64,000 nucleotides of DNA, taken from assembly GCF_010894455.1 (NCBI RefSeq), contig NZ_JAAIXY010000009.1, forward strand, positions 248,001 to 312,000, written 5' to 3'. Below are positions 39,421-48,977 of the stretch, one piece after another; position 1 is the stretch's first letter; each line of letters starts with the position of its first letter. Both the position numbers and the translations under genes were made by a program. The notes beneath the pieces were generated by a model, which saw only the letters and a list, made by a program, of their open reading frames with translations, was not told where the DNA came from and did no database searches. Source of the stretch: Myxococcus eversor. GTDB lineage: Bacteria > Myxococcota > Myxococcia > Myxococcales > Myxococcaceae.

Positions 39421-40119
39421 TCACCGCGCGGGGGCTTCCGTCCACTTCCCCTGCCGGGTCGGCTCGCGCAGGGCCTTGTGGAGCGCGGTGAGGAAGCGCT
39501 TCCTCGGCCATGACTCCGCGCCAAACCTCGCCAGGTGCTCGGTCTCCACCTGGCAGTCCACGAGTTGGAAGCCCCACTCCTTGAAGCGCTCCACCGACGA
39601 CACGAAGGCCACCTTCGACGCGTCCGGCGCGAGCGCGAACATGCTCTCACCGAAGAACGCCGCGCCCAGTGACACGCCGTACAGGCCGCCCTTCAACTCG
39701 CCGCCCTGCCACGCCTCCACCGAGTGCGCGAAGCCCCGCTCGTGCAGCTCGACGTACGCCTCCAGCATCTCGTCTGTAATCCACGTCCCGTTCTGCCCGG
39801 GACGCGTCACGCGGCCACACTCGGTGATGACGCGCGCGAAGGCCGTGTCGTAGCGAACCTCGTACTCGCCCCGGGCCATCGCCTTGCGCAGGCTGCGGCC
39901 CACATGCAGCGAGTCCGGCGTCAGCACGAAGCGAGGGTCCGGCGAGTGCCAGAGGATGGGGTCCCCCTCGCTGAACCACGGGAAGATGCCGCGCGAGTAC
40001 GCGGCCAGCAGCCGTTCGGGGCTCAGGTCCCCGCCCACGGCCAGCACTCCGCTCTTGTCAGCGCGCTCCGGAGGCGGGAACAGCTCCGGGTGCTCGTCAC
40101 TCAACAGGTAGATGGGCAC
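39421..40119 (-). CDS. aat: Leucyl/phenylalanyl-tRNA-protein transferase
   Basis: A 232-residue L/F-transferase that adds Leu or Phe to N-terminal Arg/Lys residues, marking proteins for ClpAP degradation (N-degron pathway). The family signature is intact: LLAAYSRGIFPWFSEGDPILWHSPDPR, GTWITDEMLEAYVELHERGFAHSVEAW, LKGGLYGVSLGAAFFGESMF and LVDCQVETEHLARFGA. Full family length. The LEA-like lipoprotein gene precedes it on the same strand by 12 bp. No clpS or clpA nearby. Confidence 0.97.
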   Translation of the reverse strand: MPIYLLSDEHPELFPPPERADKSGVLAVGGDLSPERLLAAYSRGIFPWFSEGDPILWHSPDPRFVLTPDSLHVGRSLRKAMARGEYEVRYDTAFARVITECGRVTRPGQNGTWITDEMLEAYVELHERGFAHSVEAWQGGELKGGLYGVSLGAAFFGESMFALAPDASKVAFVSSVERFKEWGFQLVDCQVETEHLARFGAESWPRKRFLTALHKALREPTRQGKWTEAPAR

Positions 40120-40131
40120 GCACCGCGCACT

Positions 40132-40974
40132 CTACCGGGACACGTTCAGCTTCACCTCGCCCGAGAGTGAATACGGCACCCGCATCAGTGGACCGGTCAG
40201 CTCTCCCGTCACCCCGTAGGGCAGGACCCCCCGGGAGATGAGCGCCTTCACCTCCGGCCCCCACGAGTCCTTCGTCACCGCCACCTCCACCGGGTACACC
40301 CCCGTGGCGGACGCATCCACGCTGTCCGACTGCGCCAGCGTCCCACTGTCCAGCGCCTTGCCCGCCACCGCCATCTGCCACGTCAGCCCGCTGAGCTTCA
40401 GCGGGAACGGGTTGGGGTTCCGGATGCCCAGCCGGAGGTTCAACTGCACCTCCTCGGCGGAGTAGCGCGCCCCGTCCAGCTCCTCCACGACGATGGTGGG
40501 AAGCCGGGGCACGCGCACCGCGCGACTCGCGGCGAAGGGCACCTGCTCTTCGGCGTCACCCGAGCGCACCACCAGCACCCCGCGCAGCGCCAGGAGCACC
40601 GTGCCGCCCTGCGCGCTCAGCCGCGCCAGGTCCTCCGCGCTTTGTACGTAGGCCGCGCGCTCTTCGAAAGACACGTCCCCGGGAGTGCCCGGCGTAAGCC
40701 GCGTCTCCAATTTCAGGGTGCCCTTCTTCAGCACCTTCCCCTCCGAGACGAGCTCGTAGTCGACGCGCTCCACCACGCCGGGCGCGGTGCTGGCCACCTG
40801 GGCGCTGTAGCGCAGGGTGGCCTCTGTCAGCCCCTGCGACACCACGGACGTGTCCTGAGCGGTGAGGGTGGCGGAACCAGCCGGCCGGGTGGGGGACGAG
40901 GCACACCCCATCCCCACCAGGAGCAGTGCGGCAAGCTGGACGACGGGCGAAGTCGAGCGCATCACGCTAGACAT
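40132..40974 (-). CDS. LEA type 2-like lipoprotein
   Basis: A 280-residue lipoprotein (lipobox VGMGC). Two LEA-2/WHy beta-domains follow: one around 55-140 (ATLRYSAQVASTAPGVVERVDYEL) and one around 175-270 (EVQLNLRLGIRNPNPFPLKLSGLTWQM then GVYPVEV). It is a larger relative of the kinase-linked lipoprotein at 33915-34403. ATG 40974 is used; ATG 40962 is an alternative. It lies 12 bp upstream of aat, probably co-transcribed. Role unknown; LEA-2 domains are linked to desiccation tolerance in other organisms. Confidence 0.75.
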   Translation of the reverse strand: MSSVMRSTSPVVQLAALLLVGMGCASSPTRPAGSATLTAQDTSVVSQGLTEATLRYSAQVASTAPGVVERVDYELVSEGKVLKKGTLKLETRLTPGTPGDVSFEERAAYVQSAEDLARLSAQGGTVLLALRGVLVVRSGDAEEQVPFAASRAVRVPRLPTIVVEELDGARYSAEEVQLNLRLGIRNPNPFPLKLSGLTWQMAVAGKALDSGTLAQSDSVDASATGVYPVEVAVTKDSWGPEVKALISRGVLPYGVTGELTGPLMRVPYSLSGEVKLNVSR

Positions 40975-41030
40975 TGTGTGCACCCCGGAAGCCGCCCCCA
41001 AGGGCTTTTCCGCTAGACTGTCCACCACTC

Positions 41031-41669
41031 GTGGTCCGACGCCGCCCCAACTTCAACAAGACGGTCCGCTCCCTCATCCGGGACATCGCGACGAAGCTGC
41101 CGGAGTTCGCCCACGTGAAGGCGGGCCGCATCCTGGTGGTCGCGGGTGAGGCGCGCCGTGCCTCTCGCGGCACCGTGAAGCCGCTGTGCTTCCGGGGCGG
41201 CAAGTCCACGGACCGCACCGGGCGCCGCAAGCCCGTCATCCGCATCCGCGGCCGGCGCATGCTGTACTGCATCACCCTGCGGCCCCTCTTCTTCAGGGGC
41301 TCCACCGCCCAGGCCCGCCTGGAGACGGTGCTGCACGAGCTCTTCCACCTGTCGCGCCGCTTCGACGGCACCCTGCACTCGGGCCGGCGCCACGCCGTGC
41401 TCGGCAAGGACTTCGCCCGGAAGCTGCGCCCGCTCGTGCGTCGCTACCTCAAGATGTGCCCTCCGGAGCTGCTCTCCGCCCTGGCCCTCACCGGCGAGGT
41501 GCGCGTCCTCCAGTGGCTGGAACGCCCAGGTCCCGCCTACGTCCCGGGGACGCACCGACGTGTGCGCAAGGTCTACACCGAGGACCAGCTCTATTACGGC
41601 ATCGCACGCATGGTGACGCCCAAGCCCCGCGTCCCGCGTGAAGCCGTCGTCCGCCTCAAAGTCCACTGA
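41031..41669 (+). CDS. Putative HExxH zinc metallopeptidase
   Basis: A 212-residue cytosolic protein, rich in Arg. The motif His102-Glu-Leu-Phe-His106 (VLHELFHLSRRF) with a third His at 116 or 121 is a zinc-peptidase site and resembles a group of putative phage/bacterial metallopeptidases. The N-terminal half is basic (RRRPNFNKTVRSLIRDIATK) and could bind nucleic acid. Start is GTG 41031, which lacks a good Shine-Dalgarno; a TTG 57 bp upstream overlaps the divergent gene and is less likely. Divergent from the LEA-like gene. Target unknown. Confidence 0.65.
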   Translation: MVRRRPNFNKTVRSLIRDIATKLPEFAHVKAGRILVVAGEARRASRGTVKPLCFRGGKSTDRTGRRKPVIRIRGRRMLYCITLRPLFFRGSTAQARLETVLHELFHLSRRFDGTLHSGRRHAVLGKDFARKLRPLVRRYLKMCPPELLSALALTGEVRVLQWLERPGPAYVPGTHRRVRKVYTEDQLYYGIARMVTPKPRVPREAVVRLKVH

Positions 41670-41723
41670 CAGTCCGCTTCCTGGCCACCCTGTACACCCC
41701 AGGACACTGTTCGTCTGAATCGT

Positions 41724-41752
41724 TTGACTTTGATAATGAGTATCAATATCGT
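41724..41752 (+). promoter_or_regulatory. Promoter and Fur box of the heme-uptake operon
   Basis: A -35 box TTGACT (41724-41729), a 17-bp spacer and a -10 box TATCGT (41747-41752) form a sigma-70-like promoter. A Fur box GATAATGAGTATCAATATC (41732-41750) lies between and over the elements and matches the 19-bp consensus at 16 positions. Iron-loaded Fur should block RNA polymerase here. This is the best regulatory site in the window. Confidence 0.85.
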
Positions 41753-41780
41753 CCGTCGCGTTTCAGACAGCGGAGTGGTG

Positions 41781-41960
41781 ATGCGCGACGGATGCCAGCA
41801 GGGCGGTGAAGCGGGCGAGTTGCGGTGTCTGTGCGGAAGTCTGCTGGCGAGGTTGGTGCCGGAGGGTGTGGAGCTGAAGTGCCGTCGTTGCCACCGCACG
41901 CGGGTGGTGCCGCTGGAGCGGCCGCCGGGTGGTGCGAGCGCGACGGCCGCACGCGGCTGA
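41781..41960 (+). CDS. Com-like zinc-ribbon protein
   Basis: A 59-residue cytosolic protein. Residues about 14-45 (LRCLCGSLLARLVPEGVELK followed by CRRCHR) match the short Mu-like Com zinc-ribbon, with four Cys ligands in CxC...CxxC spacing. In phage Mu, Com binds an mRNA leader to switch on translation; a similar RNA- or DNA-binding role is possible. ATG 41781 has GGAG five bases upstream and lies 28 bp after the promoter -10. Frames starting earlier would begin inside the promoter. It is the first gene of the heme operon, 135 bp before the receptor. Confidence 0.6.
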   Translation: MRDGCQQGGEAGELRCLCGSLLARLVPEGVELKCRRCHRTRVVPLERPPGGASATAARG

Positions 41961-42095
41961 GCGGGTGGGAGTGCCTGGGCGGGACAAGGCCCGGGGTGTG
42001 TCGAGAGTTGACTGAGGCCAGAGGCCCTCGAGCCCAGTGCCCCGCGGGGACTCCGTCAGAGGGAGTCCTATCGGCCATGAGTTGGAGGACGTGGA

Positions 42096-44243
42096 ATGCG
42101 TGGGAGTTGGTGTCTCCTCGTGCTGGCGTGTGCCGCCCCTGATGTGGCGTGGGGCCGCGCGTCGCCCCAGGCGGAGCAGCCAGCTCCTTCGTCGAATGCG
42201 TCCACGAATGAAGCTGTGCCCGTCGCGGCGGAGTCCGACTCCTCCATGACGAGCGGTTCCGAGGTCTCGCGTGAAGCCGTCCCGGAGGAGCCCGTCTCCG
42301 CCGCGTCGAGCGACTCCGAGGCCGAGGAGAAAGTGTCGAAGCAGGCCGAGGTCGTCGCGGGTCCAGGGGCCTCGACGACCTCGGCATCTTCGACATCCGC
42401 CGAGCAGGATGACGTCCCGGTGGCGCGCACGGTGGTGACGGCGTCGCGCACGCAGGAGCGCCTGGGCGAGACGCCCGTGGCCACCGAGGTCATCACCCGC
42501 GCGGACATCGTCGCGAGCGGCGCCCGGGACGCGTCGGAGCTGCTCGCCGCGCATCCCGGATTGGAAGTGGCGCAGACCTTCGCCGGAGCGTCGCTCCAGG
42601 TGCAGGGCCTGGGGCCCGAGTACGTGCTGGTGCTGGTGGACGGAGAGCGCGTCGCGGGTCGTGTCGCGGGCAGCGTGGACCTGTCGCGCTTGTCGCTCGA
42701 GGACGTGGAGCAGGTGGAGATCGTCAAGGGCCCGTCGTCGGTGCTCTACGGCAGTGACGCGGTGGGCGGCGTGGTGAACTTCATCACGCGCCGGGCGCGC
42801 AAGCCGCTCGGTGGTGAGCTGCGCGCGGCCTACGGCGCGCTGGAGCGGCTGGACCTGGACGCGACGGGCGAGGCGCGGGGCGACGGCTGGGGCCTTCGTC
42901 TCAGCGGTGGCCTGCAGCGCCGCGCGTCCTATGACCTGGACACCGCCGACGTGGGCACCACGGGCAGCAGCCTGGAGGGCTTCGACGTCTCCGCCAGTGG
43001 AGACCTGAAGGGCGAAGGGCCGCTGTCGATGGAGGGCTCCGCCGGCTTCTCGCGGCGCACCCAGCGCGGCGTGGACATGGGCGTCGCGGGCGCGGTGTTC
43101 GACCGGGCGAGCCGCGACACGTCCATCACCTCGCGGCTGGCGCCGTCGTGGAAGTTGAACGGCGACGCGACGCTGCGGGTGGAGGGCTCCTATACCCACT
43201 TCCAGCGCCGCTACCTGAGAGACCAGCGTCGCGCCTCCGCGCTGGACACGGTGGAGGACACGCGCGAGCAGCAGGGTCGACTGGGCACGCAGCTCGACGC
43301 GCGCGTGGGCGAGCGACATGCGTTCGTCGTCGGCGCGGAGTTCCTGGGCGAGTGGCTGGTCGCGGACCGGCTGGAGACGGGCGGGGGAGACCGGGGCCGT
43401 GCGTCGCTGTACGCGCAGGACAGCTGGACGCTCGCGACGGGGCCCAAGCTCGTCGTCGTTCCGGGCGCGCGCGTGGATGTGGACACGCAGTTCGGCACGG
43501 CCGTCACGCCTCGGCTCGCGGCGAAGATTGACCCCTTGTCGTGGCTCACCGTGCGCGGCAGCTACGGCTGGGGCTTCCGGGCGCCGGGCTTCCAGGAGCT
43601 GCTGATCGACTTCGAGAACCCCACCGTCGGCTACGTGGTGCGCGGCAACCCGGACCTGAAGCCGGAGCGCTCGCGCAGCTTCAGCCTGTCCACGGAAGTT
43701 CGGCCGTCGGATGCGTCACTCCTCTGGGTGAGCGCGTATCAGCACTCGCTGCGCGACATGATTGCCTCCACGCTGGAACAGGGTGGGGCGCAGCAGCTCT
43801 TCACGTACACCAACGTGGCGCGTGCACGCGTGAGGGGCGGCGAGCTGGGCCTGCGTCAGCGCTTCCCGTGGCGCCTGTCCGGCGAGGTGGCCTACACGCT
43901 CACTGACGGACACGACGAGGAACTGGACCGGGCGCTGGAAGGCCAGGCGCTTCATCGGCTCACCGCGCAGGCCACGTGGCGTCACCGCGAGTGGGGTCTG
44001 GAGACGTGGGTCCGCGCGGCGCTCGTCGGCAAGCGGCCCTTCTATCCGGATACGGACGGTGACGGTGTCGCCAATCCCTACCAGTCCGATGCCTATGTCA
44101 CGGTGGATGCCCGAATCGCTTGGAGGGCGCGTGAGTCGCTCCAGTTCTTCGTGCTGGGCTCCAACCTCGCGGACGCGGGCAACCCCACGGACCTGCCCAT
44201 TCCGCCTCGCACCTTCCAGGCCGGCGTCTCGTTCCGGCTGTGA
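42096..44243 (+). CDS. TonB-dependent heme/iron receptor
   Basis: A 715-residue outer-membrane receptor. The N-terminus is MRGSWCLLVLACAAPDVAWG and is followed by a Ser/Glu/Ala-rich linker (about 20-105). A TonB box-like RTVVTAS, a plug domain (about 110-240, LVLVDGERVAGR, GPSSVLYGSDAVGGVVNFIT) and a 22-strand barrel follow. FRAP-box and NPDL motifs (GFRAPGFQELL; VRGNPDLKPERS), characteristic of heme/hemoglobin receptors of the HemR/HmuR type, are present, and the last residues (AGVSFRL) fit barrel ends. No His lies between the FRAP and NPDL motifs, where classical heme receptors carry one. SD GGAGGA precedes the ATG. Under the Fur-controlled promoter. Confidence 0.93.
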   Translation: MRGSWCLLVLACAAPDVAWGRASPQAEQPAPSSNASTNEAVPVAAESDSSMTSGSEVSREAVPEEPVSAASSDSEAEEKVSKQAEVVAGPGASTTSASSTSAEQDDVPVARTVVTASRTQERLGETPVATEVITRADIVASGARDASELLAAHPGLEVAQTFAGASLQVQGLGPEYVLVLVDGERVAGRVAGSVDLSRLSLEDVEQVEIVKGPSSVLYGSDAVGGVVNFITRRARKPLGGELRAAYGALERLDLDATGEARGDGWGLRLSGGLQRRASYDLDTADVGTTGSSLEGFDVSASGDLKGEGPLSMEGSAGFSRRTQRGVDMGVAGAVFDRASRDTSITSRLAPSWKLNGDATLRVEGSYTHFQRRYLRDQRRASALDTVEDTREQQGRLGTQLDARVGERHAFVVGAEFLGEWLVADRLETGGGDRGRASLYAQDSWTLATGPKLVVVPGARVDVDTQFGTAVTPRLAAKIDPLSWLTVRGSYGWGFRAPGFQELLIDFENPTVGYVVRGNPDLKPERSRSFSLSTEVRPSDASLLWVSAYQHSLRDMIASTLEQGGAQQLFTYTNVARARVRGGELGLRQRFPWRLSGEVAYTLTDGHDEELDRALEGQALHRLTAQATWRHREWGLETWVRAALVGKRPFYPDTDGDGVANPYQSDAYVTVDARIAWRARESLQFFVLGSNLADAGNPTDLPIPPRTFQAGVSFRL

Positions 44244-44271
44244 GTCCCTCTCGAAAACTCAAGGAGCCCGA

Positions 44272-44994
44272 ATGTCCCGCCCCCCCTTCTTCTCTGTGTC
44301 CCGTTTCGGCCGTGCCGCCGCGGTCCTGTGCCTGACTGGCCTGCTGTCCGCCTGTGGTGACGACCTGGTCCCCACGCCGGGGGATGACGATGACAACACG
44401 CCGGACCCGTCGGAAGTCGAGGTGCCGGCCAATGGCACGCACGTGCGCCACGTGGGCAATGCGGACGGCTCCATCACCACGGTCGTCGACGCCACGAGCA
44501 AGGAGGCTTGGGTGGGCCTGGATTTGGATACGGGCCTGCAGGTGAGCGCGAGCGAGGACGCCGCGTGGGACTTGTCCTTCCAGCGCTTCGGCATCCGCTC
44601 GCGAGGTGGCGTGAATGGCACGGGCGGCGTGGAGGTGGCGGTGCTGCCCTCGCAGGACTTCCTCCAGCTCACGCAGGCGCCCGCGAGCGGCTTCGCGGTC
44701 GACGCGGATGACGGCGCCGACGAGGGCTCGGACCCGGACACCGTCTTCCAGGCCAATGGTGGCTGGTACGCCTACGACGTGACGACGCACAAGCTGTCGC
44801 CGCGCGCGCAGGTGTACGTCGTGCGCTCCGATTCGAGGGCGTACTTCAAGGTGGAGATGCTGTCCTACTACGACGACGCCGGCACGCCCGCGATGCTCAA
44901 GCTGCGCTGGACGAAGGTGACGGCGCCCGTCTCCGGAGGCGCGCTCGAGGATGGCGTCTCTCCCAGTGGTTCCCCTGTCGAAGTGTCTCACTGA
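44272..44994 (+). CDS. HmuY-like heme-binding lipoprotein
   Basis: A 240-residue lipoprotein (lipobox LSAC) with a low-complexity Asp-rich spacer (about 35-45) and then a HmuY-type beta-domain (WDLSFQRFGIRSRGGVNGTGGVEV; LSPRAQVYVVRSDSRAYFKVEMLSYY). In Porphyromonas, HmuY takes heme from hemoglobin and passes it to the HmuR receptor, which matches its position just after the receptor gene here (28 bp gap). AAGGAG lies six bases before the ATG. Heme ligands are not certain. Confidence 0.88.
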   Translation: MSRPPFFSVSRFGRAAAVLCLTGLLSACGDDLVPTPGDDDDNTPDPSEVEVPANGTHVRHVGNADGSITTVVDATSKEAWVGLDLDTGLQVSASEDAAWDLSFQRFGIRSRGGVNGTGGVEVAVLPSQDFLQLTQAPASGFAVDADDGADEGSDPDTVFQANGGWYAYDVTTHKLSPRAQVYVVRSDSRAYFKVEMLSYYDDAGTPAMLKLRWTKVTAPVSGGALEDGVSPSGSPVEVSH

Positions 44995-45026
44995 AGTCGA
45001 AGTCCTCCTCTCCCCTGGTGTCTGCC

Positions 45027-46118
45027 ATGATTTCCCAACCTGCTCCCACGGCGTCTTCCTCCGAGCCCACCGCCCTCCGTCAGCGCTGGCAGTCGCTGCT
45101 CGAGGCCCAGCCGCGCACGCGTATCCGTGATGCGGCCGAACAACTTGGCGTGAGCGAGGCGCAGTTGCTCGCCACCGGTGTGGGTGAAGACGTCGTCCGG
45201 TTGGACCTGCGTCTCGACACGTTGCTGCCTCGCCTGGAGTCGCTGGGCAAGGTGATGACGCTCACGCGCAACGAGAGCGCCGTGCACGAGAAGCGCGGCC
45301 TGTACCGCAACGTCGAGGTGAACGGGGCTGTCGCGCTGGTGCTGGACGAGAACATCGACCTGCGGCTGTTCCTCATGCGCTGGCGCTTCGGCTTCGCGTT
45401 CCGTGAGGCTCGTCCGGAGGGCACGCGGCGCAGCCTGCACTTCTTCGACGGCACGGGCATGGCCGTGCACAAAATCTACCTGGAGGACGAGTCCGGCGTC
45501 GGCGCGTACGACCGCCTGGTGGAGGACTACGCCCACGCGGAGCAGTCGCGCGTGGTGCCGGTGGAGGCGGCCTCCGCGCCGGAGGTTCCCCGGCCGGATG
45601 GCGACATCGACGTGGCGGGCCTGGTGTCCGGCTGGCGCGGGCTCCAGGACACGCATGACTTCTTCCCGCTCCTGCGTCGCTTCAAGGTGGCGCGGACGCA
45701 GGCGCTCCGATTGGTGGGCAGCGAGCTGACCACGCCCGTGGCCCCGGCTTCCCTGACGTGGACGCTGGAGAAGGTGGCGGCCTCGGGCCAGCCCATCATG
45801 GTGTTCGTGGGCAACCCTGGCGCCATCCAGATTCACACCGGCCCGGTGCACACCGTGCGCGCCATGGGCCCGTGGATGAACGTGTTGGACCCGAGCTTCA
45901 ACCTGCACCTGCGCACGGACCACATCCACACGGCCTGGGTTGTCCGCAAGCCCACGCGTGATGGCGTCGTCACCTCGCTGGAGCTGTTTGACGCGGCCGG
46001 TGAGAACATCGCGCTGCTCTTCGGCAAGCGGAAGCCCGGCATCCCCGAGCAGCCCGAATGGCGGGCGCTGATGGAGGAGTTGATCGCCGCGCTGCCCGCG
46101 ACTGGGGCGGAATCATGA
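45027..46118 (+). CDS. hmuS: HmuS/HemS-like hemin-handling protein
   Basis: A 363-residue cytosolic protein with two HemS/ChuX-like repeats (about 20-175 and 195-350), each with an ALG-type core (RDAAEQLGVSEAQLLATGVG; FFPLLRRFKVARTQALRLVG) and an equivalent of the heme-binding His region (NVLDPSFNLHLRTDHIHTAWV). Proteins of this type store or release iron from imported heme. ATG 45027 is used; GTG 45018 is possible. Its stop overlaps the hmuT start by 4 bp. Confidence 0.92.
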   Translation: MISQPAPTASSSEPTALRQRWQSLLEAQPRTRIRDAAEQLGVSEAQLLATGVGEDVVRLDLRLDTLLPRLESLGKVMTLTRNESAVHEKRGLYRNVEVNGAVALVLDENIDLRLFLMRWRFGFAFREARPEGTRRSLHFFDGTGMAVHKIYLEDESGVGAYDRLVEDYAHAEQSRVVPVEAASAPEVPRPDGDIDVAGLVSGWRGLQDTHDFFPLLRRFKVARTQALRLVGSELTTPVAPASLTWTLEKVAASGQPIMVFVGNPGAIQIHTGPVHTVRAMGPWMNVLDPSFNLHLRTDHIHTAWVVRKPTRDGVVTSLELFDAAGENIALLFGKRKPGIPEQPEWRALMEELIAALPATGAES

Positions 46119-47083
46119 AGCGCGTCACCGTGCTCCTGGCGGCACTGCTGATGTCGCAGGCCGCGCTGGCCTCGACGCCCGCCGCGACTGCCGCGCCCGC
46201 TGCTCCGAAGACGGCACCGGCACCCACGACTCCGGCGCCCGAAGCAGCGAAGACGGCACAGGCTCCCGTCGCGGCGAAGACGGCACCGGCCGCCGCCGCG
46301 CCGAAGCTGGTGACGGTGGGGCCCGCTGTCACGGAGACGGTGTTCGCGCTTGGCGCGGGCGCGCAGGTGGTGGGAGTCGACGACACCAGCCTGGCGCTGC
46401 CCGTGGCCCGGAGCCGGCCGAAGGTGGGCTACCAGCGCGCGCTGGCCGTGGAGCCCCTGCTCGCGCTCGGCGCGTCGTGGCTGCTGGCGACGGAGGAAGC
46501 GGGACCTCCGGGTGTCCTTGAGCAACTTCGCACGGCGGGAATGGACGTCGTCGTGTTGTCCAACCTGCCCACGCTGGATGTGGCGCGGCAGCGCATCCGG
46601 ACGCTCGCCACGAAGCTGGGCCGGGTGTCCGAGGGTGAGGCGCTCGTCGCGGAGCTGGAGGCGGACCTGAAGCGCGCCGCTGCTCGGGCCGCCTCGGCGA
46701 AGCAGGCGAAGCCCAAGCGCATCCTCGCGCTGTATGCCCGGGGCGCCAACGCCCTCATGGTCGCGGGCAAGGACACCGCCACCGACGAGCTCATCCGGCT
46801 GGCGGGCGGCGTGAATGCCGTGACGAGCTACACCGGCCACCGGCCGCTCACGGCCGAGGCGGTGGTGGGCGCGGCGCCCGACATCATCCTGCTTCCCGCC
46901 GGCACGCTGGAGGCCGTCGGAGGTGAAGCGGGGCTTCGGCAGGTCCCCGGCCTGTCCCAGGCGCAGGGCTGGAAGCTGACCACCATCGAGGACGTCCACT
47001 TCATGAGCCTGGGGCCCAAGCTGGGCAAGGCCGTGCAGCGCTTGCAGGACGGCATGGGACTTCCGGCGCAGGACGGGACATGA
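46115..47083 (+). CDS. hmuT: Periplasmic hemin-binding protein (HmuT)
   Basis: A 322-residue secreted protein. The signal peptide (MKRVTVLLAALLMSQAALA) is followed by an unusual Ala/Pro/Lys-rich linker of about 40 residues (about 20-62) and a class III substrate-binding fold (APKLVTVGPAVTETVFALGAG; RALAVEPLLALGASWLL; IVELPAG-like DIILLPAGTLE). It binds heme in the periplasm and feeds the HmuUV transporter. Overlaps hmuS and hmuU by 4 bp at both ends. Confidence 0.93.
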   Translation: MKRVTVLLAALLMSQAALASTPAATAAPAAPKTAPAPTTPAPEAAKTAQAPVAAKTAPAAAAPKLVTVGPAVTETVFALGAGAQVVGVDDTSLALPVARSRPKVGYQRALAVEPLLALGASWLLATEEAGPPGVLEQLRTAGMDVVVLSNLPTLDVARQRIRTLATKLGRVSEGEALVAELEADLKRAAARAASAKQAKPKRILALYARGANALMVAGKDTATDELIRLAGGVNAVTSYTGHRPLTAEAVVGAAPDIILLPAGTLEAVGGEAGLRQVPGLSQAQGWKLTTIEDVHFMSLGPKLGKAVQRLQDGMGLPAQDGT

Positions 47084-48177
47084 GCGCTTCGGACGTGGCA
47101 CCCACTCCCGCGACCTATCCGGCGCGGGAGCAGGTGAAGGTACCTGGCGGGCGTCCTCGCCCGTGGTTCGTGCTGGGCGCCGCGCTCGTGGTCGTCACGC
47201 TCACGTCGCTTTCGGTGGGCTCATACCGGGTGCCACTGCTGGGGCTGTTTGGAAGTGTGCTGGAGGCGTTGGGGCTGGAGACGGGCTATCGGCTGGAGCC
47301 GATGCAGCAGGCGGTGCTGCTGTCCATCCGTCTGCCGCGCGTGGTGCTCGGGGTGATGGTGGGCGCGGTGCTTGCCACCAGCGGCGCCGCGCTCCAGGCG
47401 CTGTTTCGCAACCCGCTCGTGGAGCCGGGCCTCCTGGGGACCTCCAGCGGCGCGGCCCTGGGCGCGGTGACGGCCATCGTCCTGGACGCGGCCCTCAGCT
47501 CGCGGCTGGGGCCGTTCCGTCTGCTCGTGGTACCGGGCGCGGCGTTCCTGGGCGCGCTGAGTGCCACGGTGCTCGCGCAGCGGCTGGGCGGGGGCGGTGG
47601 ACGCACGGAGACGGCGCGCATCCTCCTGGCGGGCGTGGCGGTGAGCGCGGGCGCGGGCGCGGGGATTGGCCTGCTCACGCAGATGGCCACCGATGCTCAG
47701 CTTCGCACCATCACCTTCTGGACCTGGGGCAGTCTGGCCGGCGCCTCCTGGAGTGTGGTGGTGGCATCCACGGTGCCGCTGCTCATCGCGCTGGTGTTGC
47801 TGCTGAAGGATTCACGCTCGCTCAACCTGCTGCTCCTGGGAGAGCGCGAGGCGTGGCACCTGGGCGTGGACGTGGAGAAGCTGAAGCGACGGCTCGTCCT
47901 CGCGGCGGCGCTGGGTGTCGGCGCGGCGGTGTCCGTCTCGGGCGTCATCGGCTTCGTGGGGTTGCTCGTCCCCGCGCTGTTGCGGCTCGCGCTCGGGCCG
48001 GACCACCGGCGGTTGATGGGGGCCTCCGCGCTCCTGGGCTCGGCGTTGCTCGTCGCCTCGGATGTGCTGGCTCGCACGGCGGCGGTGCCCCAGGAGCTTC
48101 CCATCGGTGCGCTCACGTCCATGCTGGGTGTCCCTGTCTTCGTCTCGCTGCTGGTGCGCGGCAAGGGGATGTCATGA
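47080..48177 (+). CDS. hmuU: Heme ABC transporter permease (HmuU)
   Basis: A 365-residue FecCD-family permease with about nine to ten transmembrane helices. LATSGAALQALFRNPLVEPGLLGTSSGAALGA and AVSVSGVIGFVGLLVPALLRLALGPDH are the family signatures. It has a Pro-rich cytosolic start of about 30 residues. Four-base overlaps with hmuT and hmuV. Confidence 0.95.
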   Translation: MSASDVAPTPATYPAREQVKVPGGRPRPWFVLGAALVVVTLTSLSVGSYRVPLLGLFGSVLEALGLETGYRLEPMQQAVLLSIRLPRVVLGVMVGAVLATSGAALQALFRNPLVEPGLLGTSSGAALGAVTAIVLDAALSSRLGPFRLLVVPGAAFLGALSATVLAQRLGGGGGRTETARILLAGVAVSAGAGAGIGLLTQMATDAQLRTITFWTWGSLAGASWSVVVASTVPLLIALVLLLKDSRSLNLLLLGEREAWHLGVDVEKLKRRLVLAAALGVGAAVSVSGVIGFVGLLVPALLRLALGPDHRRLMGASALLGSALLVASDVLARTAAVPQELPIGALTSMLGVPVFVSLLVRGKGMS

Positions 48178-48977
48178 GCCTGGAGGCACGGGGAATCGAG
48201 GTGTGGCGAGGCCGGGGGCGCACGCTCGGGCCGCTGTCCCTGGAGCTGGTGCCCGGCGAGGTCCTCGCCGTGGTGGGCCCGAATGGCGCGGGCAAGTCCA
48301 CGCTGCTCTCGGCTTTCTGCGGAGAGCTGAGCTGCACCGTGGGAGAGGTGCTGCTGGACGGACGCCCGCTGTTGAAGTGGCCACCCCGGGAGCGCGCGCT
48401 GCGGCTGGGCGTGCTTCCCCAGGAGTCGTCCCTCGGGTTCGGCTTCACCGTGCTGGAGGTCGCGCTGCTGGGGCGCAGTCCTCACGCGACGCGCGGCGAG
48501 GGGAGCGTGGACATGGAGGCGGCGCTGGCCTCGCTGGAGGTGATGGACATCCGGCACCTGTCGTCGCGGCCGTACACCTCGCTCTCAGGTGGAGAGCGGC
48601 AGCGGGTGCAGCTCGCGCGCGTGCTCGCGCAACTCTGGGAAGCGCCCGCGCACGGTCATCGTTATCTGTTGCTCGACGAGCCGACCTCGAGCCTGGACTT
48701 GTCGCATCAACATCTCGTGCTGGAGGAAGCAACGCGCTTCGCGCGGCAGGGCGGCGCAGTGCTCGCGGTGCTTCATGATTTGAACCTGGCCGCGCGTTAT
48801 GCGCACCGCATCGCGGTCCTCAAGGACGGCAAGCTGGTGGAGCTGGGGGCTCCCGCTCAGGTGCTTCGACCGGACCTCATCGCGAGCACCTTCGGTCTCC
48901 AGGTCCGTGTCGTCGAGTATCCGGATTCACCCGCGCCTTTCATCATTCCGTCAGGCCGGGCTCCGCCTCCCGCGTGA
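48174..48977 (+). CDS. hmuV: Heme ABC transporter ATPase (HmuV)
   Basis: A 267-residue ABC ATPase. Walker A (VGPNGAGKSTL, about 35-45), signature LSGGERQRV, Walker B (YLLLDEPTSSLD) and H-loop (VLHDLNLAA) are intact. Powers hmuU. Last gene of the operon; the region after its stop holds no convincing terminator. The ATG overlaps the hmuU stop by 4 bp. Confidence 0.95.
   Translation: MSLEARGIEVWRGRGRTLGPLSLELVPGEVLAVVGPNGAGKSTLLSAFCGELSCTVGEVLLDGRPLLKWPPRERALRLGVLPQESSLGFGFTVLEVALLGRSPHATRGEGSVDMEAALASLEVMDIRHLSSRPYTSLSGGERQRVQLARVLAQLWEAPAHGHRYLLLDEPTSSLDLSHQHLVLEEATRFARQGGAVLAVLHDLNLAARYAHRIAVLKDGKLVELGAPAQVLRPDLIASTFGLQVRVVEYPDSPAPFIIPSGRAPPPA

Follow-up and report, generated by a model that had tools for sequence, protein, structure and literature searches.

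The Com protein of phage Mu activates translation of the mom mRNA and is known as a regulator with one target; its site is next to the structure that covers the start of mom. A SELEX study concluded that the motif read by Com is CC(N)2-3GAG, placed in a hairpin loop that a C-G pair closes; its GA is essential, the selected RNA carries a second core, GAG(N)2CC, across a stem of 3-4 nt, and the SHAPE reactivity of the GA drops upon Com binding (Nowacka et al. 2019, PMC6483171). ChuP of Chromobacterium is a small protein heading the Fur-controlled chuPRSTUV operon, and its description (PMC9131926) proposes that it activates two receptor genes post-transcriptionally via HPRE sequences in their leaders; it also acts on vbuA.

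We analysed a stretch of 64,000 nt of Myxococcus eversor (the window; NCBI RefSeq assembly GCF_010894455.1, contig NZ_JAAIXY010000009.1, positions 248,001 to 312,000; genome of 11.4 Mb in 124 contigs), in which a gene that we call ZnR recalls both systems. As in Mu, a small Cys4 protein is encoded just ahead of its putative target gene, and the putative RNA site is a short hairpin whose loop reads C..GA, another GA lying on the far side of the stem. As with HmuP/HemP/ChuP, ZnR, judging from sequence, heads a heme receptor operon under Fur control. The features of the locus are as follows.

41724..41752, + strand: sigma-70-like promoter, TTGACT-N17-TATCGT
41732..41750, + strand: Fur box overlapping the promoter (19-mer match 16/19 on the + strand, 17/19 on the - strand)
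41781..41960, + strand: ZnR, 59-aa Com-like zinc-ribbon gene (Shine-Dalgarno GGAG at 41772-41775)
41961..42095, + strand: leader of 135 nt from ZnR to the receptor ATG
42013..42043, + strand: RNA element (extent of the match to model R1)
42048..42068, + strand: hairpin B, GGACTCC-GTCAGAG-GGAGTCC
42071..42085, + strand: hairpin C, UCGGC-CAUGA-GUUGG, with three G-U pairs
42096..44243, + strand: TonB-dependent receptor, the proposed target (heme assigned from operon context)
44272..44994, + strand: HmuY-family protein
45018..46118, + strand: HemS/ChuX heme protein
46058..47083, + strand: periplasmic binding protein HmuT (longest ORF)
47080..48177, + strand: FecCD-type permease HmuU
48174..48977, + strand: heme ABC transporter ATPase HmuV

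The initial annotation of this DNA had described a promoter with a Fur box on top of it, a short Cys4 ORF with a Shine-Dalgarno sequence, a 135-bp leader and a position at the head of a heme operon, and we recovered all of these. The promoter is the one sigma-70-like site found in 40000-46000, where 0.2 are expected, and shuffled versions of the window contained no Fur box at the match level of 41732-41750, as scored with the 19-mer that we take to be the Fur consensus. For HmuT, the ATG at 46115, which overlaps the HemS stop, is a likelier start than that of the longest ORF. Upstream of the promoter, a 231-aa ORF (40974-41669) shows a weak likeness to the phage-type metallopeptidase PF18894 (E 0.0016, below the cut-off); it adjoins ZnR in many Myxococcus-type loci.

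The association with Fur extends to other loci. We scanned 41 of the 64 collected ZnR sequences: 26 have a Fur-like site matching at least 13/19 positions in the 150 nt ahead of ZnR, compared with 21 of 820 random windows from the same loci; the remaining 15 have no site at that level.

Comparison of homologues indicates that the ZnR ORF is a genuine gene, conserved and under purifying selection. The annotation had made its case depend on such conservation, and homologues are present at E<=1.4e-17 in 25 of the 27 genomes of the genus (own genome included) and at E<=1e-4 in 59 of 195 Myxococcota genomes, with a single match per genome. Over a 34-codon core, 26 Myxococcaceae-type sequences give pN/pS = 0.12, with variation at 10 first, 6 second and 24 third codon positions. 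The proposed search ahead of TonB receptors in other myxobacteria was also productive, and gene order is kept: the receptor was matched in 13 of 24 loci examined, 12 of these 13 are Myxococcaceae-like (L037-L047, L058), and in all 12 ZnR precedes the receptor and HmuY. In L050, ZnR lies farther upstream of the receptor. The genes upstream of ZnR in the window were not found in L043, L044, L045 and L058, where ZnR is still with the receptor (L046 begins too near ZnR to judge them). Across the 195 Myxococcota genomes, ZnR occurs in 44 of the 48 that bear HemS and in 15 that do not.

Outside Myxococcaceae, ZnR adjoins fur in some loci (confirmed by Pfam in L054, read from reading frames in the others), follows an FTR1-like gene in L048 and L053 (by eye) and lies directly ahead of porin-like genes in L051 and L052; L051 and L140 are one locus, because genomes G109 and G198 share one contig. 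The porin of L048 has a weak likeness to PF07396 (E 0.0054, below the cut-off), and OprB is the gene after the element both in L128, where the element adjoins ZnR, and in L165, where it lies away from it. For Geobacter and relatives, porins under Fur control, of which one is an OprB and another weakly resembles PF07396, have been predicted in a paper whose relevant portions mention neither the ZnR gene nor the RNA element (Rodionov et al. 2004, PMC545781). ZnR and the element also occur in further lineages, through metagenome-assembled deltaproteobacterial records; in Candidatus Binatia the ZnR protein is present, with no element nearby. In L052 (9962-11491), ZnR and the porin-like gene share one stop-free open frame, with the element sitting in the join. 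A recent phage origin of ZnR is not supported because tblastn of one ZnR homologue gave no match in phages (E<=1) or plasmids (E<=0.1), and a ZnR profile search of viral contigs was empty.

The ribbon cysteines of the window ZnR are at positions 16, 18, 34 and 37, with an additional Cys5, and the family consensus is RC-x-CGSLLARLV-xx-GVELKCRRCKR-x4-PL. The knuckles C16-x-C18 and C34-x-x-C37 are invariant in 48 aligned ZnR sequences, whereas five Com sequences have C-x-x-C in both. These five (Mu and 4 of 20 Com loci collected) made up a Com profile, to which ZnR aligned by hhalign over 33 columns at 94.9% and E 4.6e-8, this E-value being that of a single comparison; the one gap falls in the first knuckle. 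The window ZnR matches no Pfam or NCBIfam model at E<=1, and PF10122 (Zn_ribbon_Com) matches neither it nor five homologues at that threshold; four of these homologues have no Pfam match, and the fifth has two sub-threshold matches to zinc ribbons other than Com. A PF10122 search of the own genome gave six weak matches, none at the ZnR locus. A search of solved structures yielded no family, the AlphaFold model has four strands at low confidence (pLDDT 67), and Foldseek with this low-confidence model found no significant fold match. The annotation's zinc ribbon of the Com type therefore stands as far as profile similarity goes but not in the form of the first knuckle or in family membership: by its sequence ZnR is Com-like, outside PF10122 as defined, and it probably binds zinc. 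In G521 (L232/L246), which was not part of the 48-sequence alignment, Tyr replaces the second Cys, and a regular element and a TonB-receptor-like frame still follow.

In the aligned leaders, one block is more conserved than its surroundings, and the same block occurs downstream of ZnR in distant loci (alignment A4 is without L023, L025, L027 (299-nt leader) and L077). This RNA element, with the consensus GGC-CNGM-G[GA]N-(5-9 nt)-N[CU]C-CNGM-GCC, or more narrowly GGC-CNGM-GGY-(C..GA loop)-RCC-CNGM-GCC, is a 26-nt hairpin in which a 4x4 CNGM/CNGM internal loop separates two 3-bp stems and the apical loop reads C..GA; its core in the window (42016-42041) reads GGC-CAGA-GGC-CCUCGA-GCC-CAGU-GCC. 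In 39 chosen copies, from which near-identical Myxococcaceae copies were left out, 99.6% of pair cells are paired and there are 19 double changes, values that none of 500 shuffles reach. The 12 copies from outside the model genomes give 98.6% and 9 double changes (again 0/500 shuffles), a set that leans toward the model because its copies were found with it; both stems vary, and stem 1 is GAC/GUC twice. These are 12 of 13 new adjacent elements, that of G521 having been left out though it is regular. Five covariation measures were computed in total, and on two the alignments do not clearly beat the shuffles: the number of pairs with any double change was reached in 343/500 (39 copies) and 32/500 shuffles (12 copies), which is not clearly above chance, and that of further pair types in 500/500 and 499/500, which is not above chance.

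Position 2 of the internal loop is never C on both strands in the 39 copies, as if a fully paired internal loop were avoided. The C..GA loop is present in 31 of 39 (1.3 in letter shuffles) and is closed by C-G in 26 of 39, and CNG[A/C] lies directly 5' of the stem. The pattern CC(N)2-3GAG can be read in 32 of 39 elements, sometimes in the internal loop, a match of letters only; the element loop thus resembles the Com SELEX target at this level. None of 4227 Rfam models matched the window at its gathering score, and in eight element-bearing loci the two Rfam matches at E<=5 (1.2 and 3.1) are not at the element. RNAalifold, applied to the Myxococcaceae leaders alone, prefers an alternative pairing, CUGaGGC/GCCCAG, which we rejected because the proposed stems show compensation across lineages.

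Gene and element occur together. With strict filters and a cut-off of E<=0.1, model R1 matches 64 of the 195 Myxococcota genomes; tightening it to E<=0.005 leaves 54. Every one of these 54 carries ZnR, a count that is inflated for cis copies (partly linkage) because the element was found beside the gene. The converse is independent of cis linkage: the element is absent at E<=0.005 from all 136 ZnR-less Myxococcota genomes, eight of which have weak matches at E<=0.1. Five ZnR genomes have no match at E<=0.005 (G058, G060, G091, G117, G193); on inspection the element is present in G193 (E 0.008), G060 and G091, and none was seen in G058 (best match E 0.148). The ZnR loci with no element nearby are L050, L054, L059, L060, L100, L127 and L129-L131. 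Weak R1 matches were judged to be chance by eye, from reading-frame context, low-complexity sequence or lack of a C..GA loop, in G009, G013, G011, G126, G141, G140, G056, G088, G090, G101, G205, G201, G262, G058 and at G091:C72; that at G091:C13 (E 0.194) is an element on inspection, with 5/6 pairs, as in G060.

A second group of 235 genomes gave 22 ZnR matches, of which two (G629, G591) are false positives with no cysteine ribbon. In 16 genomes the element lies directly downstream of ZnR on the same strand, and 13 of these are not in model R1 (G199, G202 and G204 were used in it). At E<=0.002 there are 13 R1 matches, every one immediately behind ZnR on the same strand; relaxing to E<=0.005 gives 16 in that position and 3 that are not. 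Four of the 20 genuine ZnR genomes have no element match, and six ZnR-less genomes have matches at E 0.0026-0.02, all six covered by open reading frames, although two of them, in G597 and G455, have a C..GA loop and may be genuine.

Some genomes offer natural tests of this link. The sister genomes G137 and G139 (loci L175 and L176) have the same operon and Fur promoter, TTGACTTTGATAATGACTATCAATACC, and both ZnR and the element are absent; the promoter is followed by a short leader, which contains hairpin C, and then by the receptor, and elsewhere in these genomes there are only chance-level element matches. Since hairpin C is kept there without ZnR, it may not by itself block the receptor. Conversely, the only good element copy lies away from ZnR in G040, G060 and G091, and G055 has a second copy away from it. 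The genes behind these distant copies encode an OprB porin in G040 and candidate outer-membrane proteins otherwise (signal peptides judged by a home-made score). The target gene of the G060 type is found in 6 of 24 family genomes, with the element upstream in the ZnR-bearing G060, G091 and G055 and none upstream in the ZnR-less G103 and G087 (G090 was not readable). In L164 the frame after the element continues into a radical-SAM/TRAM protein, and the target gene is broken or misread, because similarity to the G060 target runs on in another frame. L132 (G092) has two element copies about 1 kb apart, each before a different candidate outer-membrane gene, the second encoding a PF13557 protein.

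What the element might do is suggested by folding. Predictions for 22 of 32 loci have its 3' arm pairing downstream, as the 5' arm of a competing hairpin in several relatives (L164, L165 and L166 were folded with the end one base short). Such pairing is not favoured in the other 10, and L019 and L143 are predicted to prefer the element itself; for the window the prediction of the competing pairing is only moderate (0.64). In L048, L051, L136 and L138 the competitor is predicted to be a strong hairpin with a U-rich run behind it, which recalls an intrinsic terminator, and L240 has a terminator-like arrangement by eye; in L049 the predicted hairpin takes in the Shine-Dalgarno sequence. Of 39 Myxococcaceae leaders, 37 have a further stem that ends in the first GG of the receptor's GGAGG (7.3 expected from shuffles, maximum 14), with changes such as CCGAC/GUCGG. 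Its window version is weak; there, the 3' arm of hairpin C includes the first GG of the receptor Shine-Dalgarno sequence (GGAGG, 42084-42088).

If the 3' arm of the element pairs downstream when free, as these models predict, a protein holding the element would turn expression on. We consider it likely that ZnR, like Com, is an activator that binds RNA, acting on the receptor leader by antitermination or by freeing translation, and layered on Fur. Under iron scarcity Fur would leave the promoter and ZnR would be made as the first cistron; it would bind the 26-nt hairpin in the leader of the next gene, whose 3' arm (GAGCCC or similar) would be kept from downstream pairing. A free arm would form a terminator in some relatives and a hairpin near the receptor Shine-Dalgarno sequence in others, probably in the window too. 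The outcome would be an AND-gate, in which receptor synthesis needs both Fur off and ZnR present. The annotation had anticipated a protein that acts on the leader of the receptor mRNA and adds a second layer to the control by Fur, and conservation, the covarying element, the co-travel of the two and the Com-like loop all argue for it. Its narrower proposal, control of receptor translation, agrees with the Shine-Dalgarno platforms of some loci but not with those relatives that look like transcription antitermination. We regard as doubtful a variant in which the metal (or heme) occupancy of the Com-like ribbon itself gates the holding of the element, which would make it a metal-responsive antiterminator of outer-membrane uptake genes that, in some lineages, also commands a trans regulon.

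The element could instead be a self-standing metal- or heme-sensing riboswitch, ZnR being merely another gene of the iron operon. Its structure, the terminator-like and Shine-Dalgarno platforms and the position ahead of candidate uptake genes would suit such a switch, as would the weak matches with a C..GA loop in two ZnR-less genomes (G597, G455). However, a riboswitch should often occur without ZnR, and this is at odds with its absence at E<=0.005 from the 136 ZnR-less Myxococcota genomes and with the joint absence of gene and element from G137 and G139; the fit of the loop to the Com SELEX target also points to a protein, and we think a riboswitch unlikely. The genomic association also speaks against ZnR being a zinc or iron chaperone, or a DNA-binding protein of the iron operon, with the element serving another regulator: four cysteines, the iron-operon context and the homologues adjoining fur are what one would expect of such a protein, but the similarity to Com, the tight link with the element and their joint absence make this account very improbable.

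A further alternative is that ZnR binds the element yet represses or autoregulates, so that it damps its own mRNA or the output of the receptor. Gene and element are neighbours, and in G457, G199 and G656 the element overlaps the end of the ZnR match, much as the 3' end of com contains the Com site in Mu, so feedback on ZnR could occur. Against this, the competing hairpin is usually the favoured fold without ZnR (22/32 loci), so a stabilised element should release rather than block; the distant copies precede other genes, and the nearest analogues, Com and ChuP, are activators. We give this reading little chance, and we infer that ZnR binds RNA and activates the receptor.

Activation by ZnR would differ from the described systems in several respects. 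Whereas Com is known from a phage, ZnR seems to regulate iron and heme uptake from the chromosome and to have an RNA element of its own: it is Fur-linked and ahead of outer-membrane genes, its element has two 3-bp stems and a 4x4 internal loop, some relatives have terminator-like platforms, and element copies exist away from the gene. BglG, SacY and LicT hold a short hairpin, the RAT, that overlaps the 5' arm of a terminator, and so allow read-through. The ZnR element is predicted to overlap a terminator in the same way in some relatives, but protein and RNA sequence differ, and we know of no PTS control in the ZnR system. The HemP/HmuP model PF10636 matches neither ZnR at E<=1 nor anything in its own genome, and a HemP match was found in 1 of 195 Myxococcota genomes; to our knowledge, HmuP has no Cys4 ribbon. 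The HPRE sequences quoted for ChuP differ from the ZnR element, although both contain GCCAG. The best reading of the analogy is that ZnR would fill the role that HmuP/ChuP has in proteobacteria.

Among the matches listed for the open-access literature there is no earlier report of a ZnR-RNA element pair. The recurrence of the pair in distant bacteria, ahead of genes for outer-membrane proteins, is suggestive of a yet undescribed RNA switch that governs the uptake of iron and heme. ZnR would give myxobacteria a counterpart of HmuP and explain a gating of outer-membrane receptors beyond Fur, and its loci would supply many natural Com-type protein-RNA pairs from which to learn how one zinc ribbon reads a hairpin.

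Some individual loci depart from the common pattern. A record titled Comamonas sp. KCTC 72670 (L041) holds a Myxococcaceae-type ZnR-receptor locus and is probably a contamination or mislabelling. In L139 (G117), ZnR is apparently decaying, with its leading RC altered, in a genome with neither HemS nor a strong element match. A ZnR subfamily with RCxCHRLLAR comprises L230, L231, L233, L234 and L137; no element lies between ZnR and the next gene in the first four, and L137 has one. Lastly, G203 carries two ZnR genes (C273, C368), with an element downstream of each.
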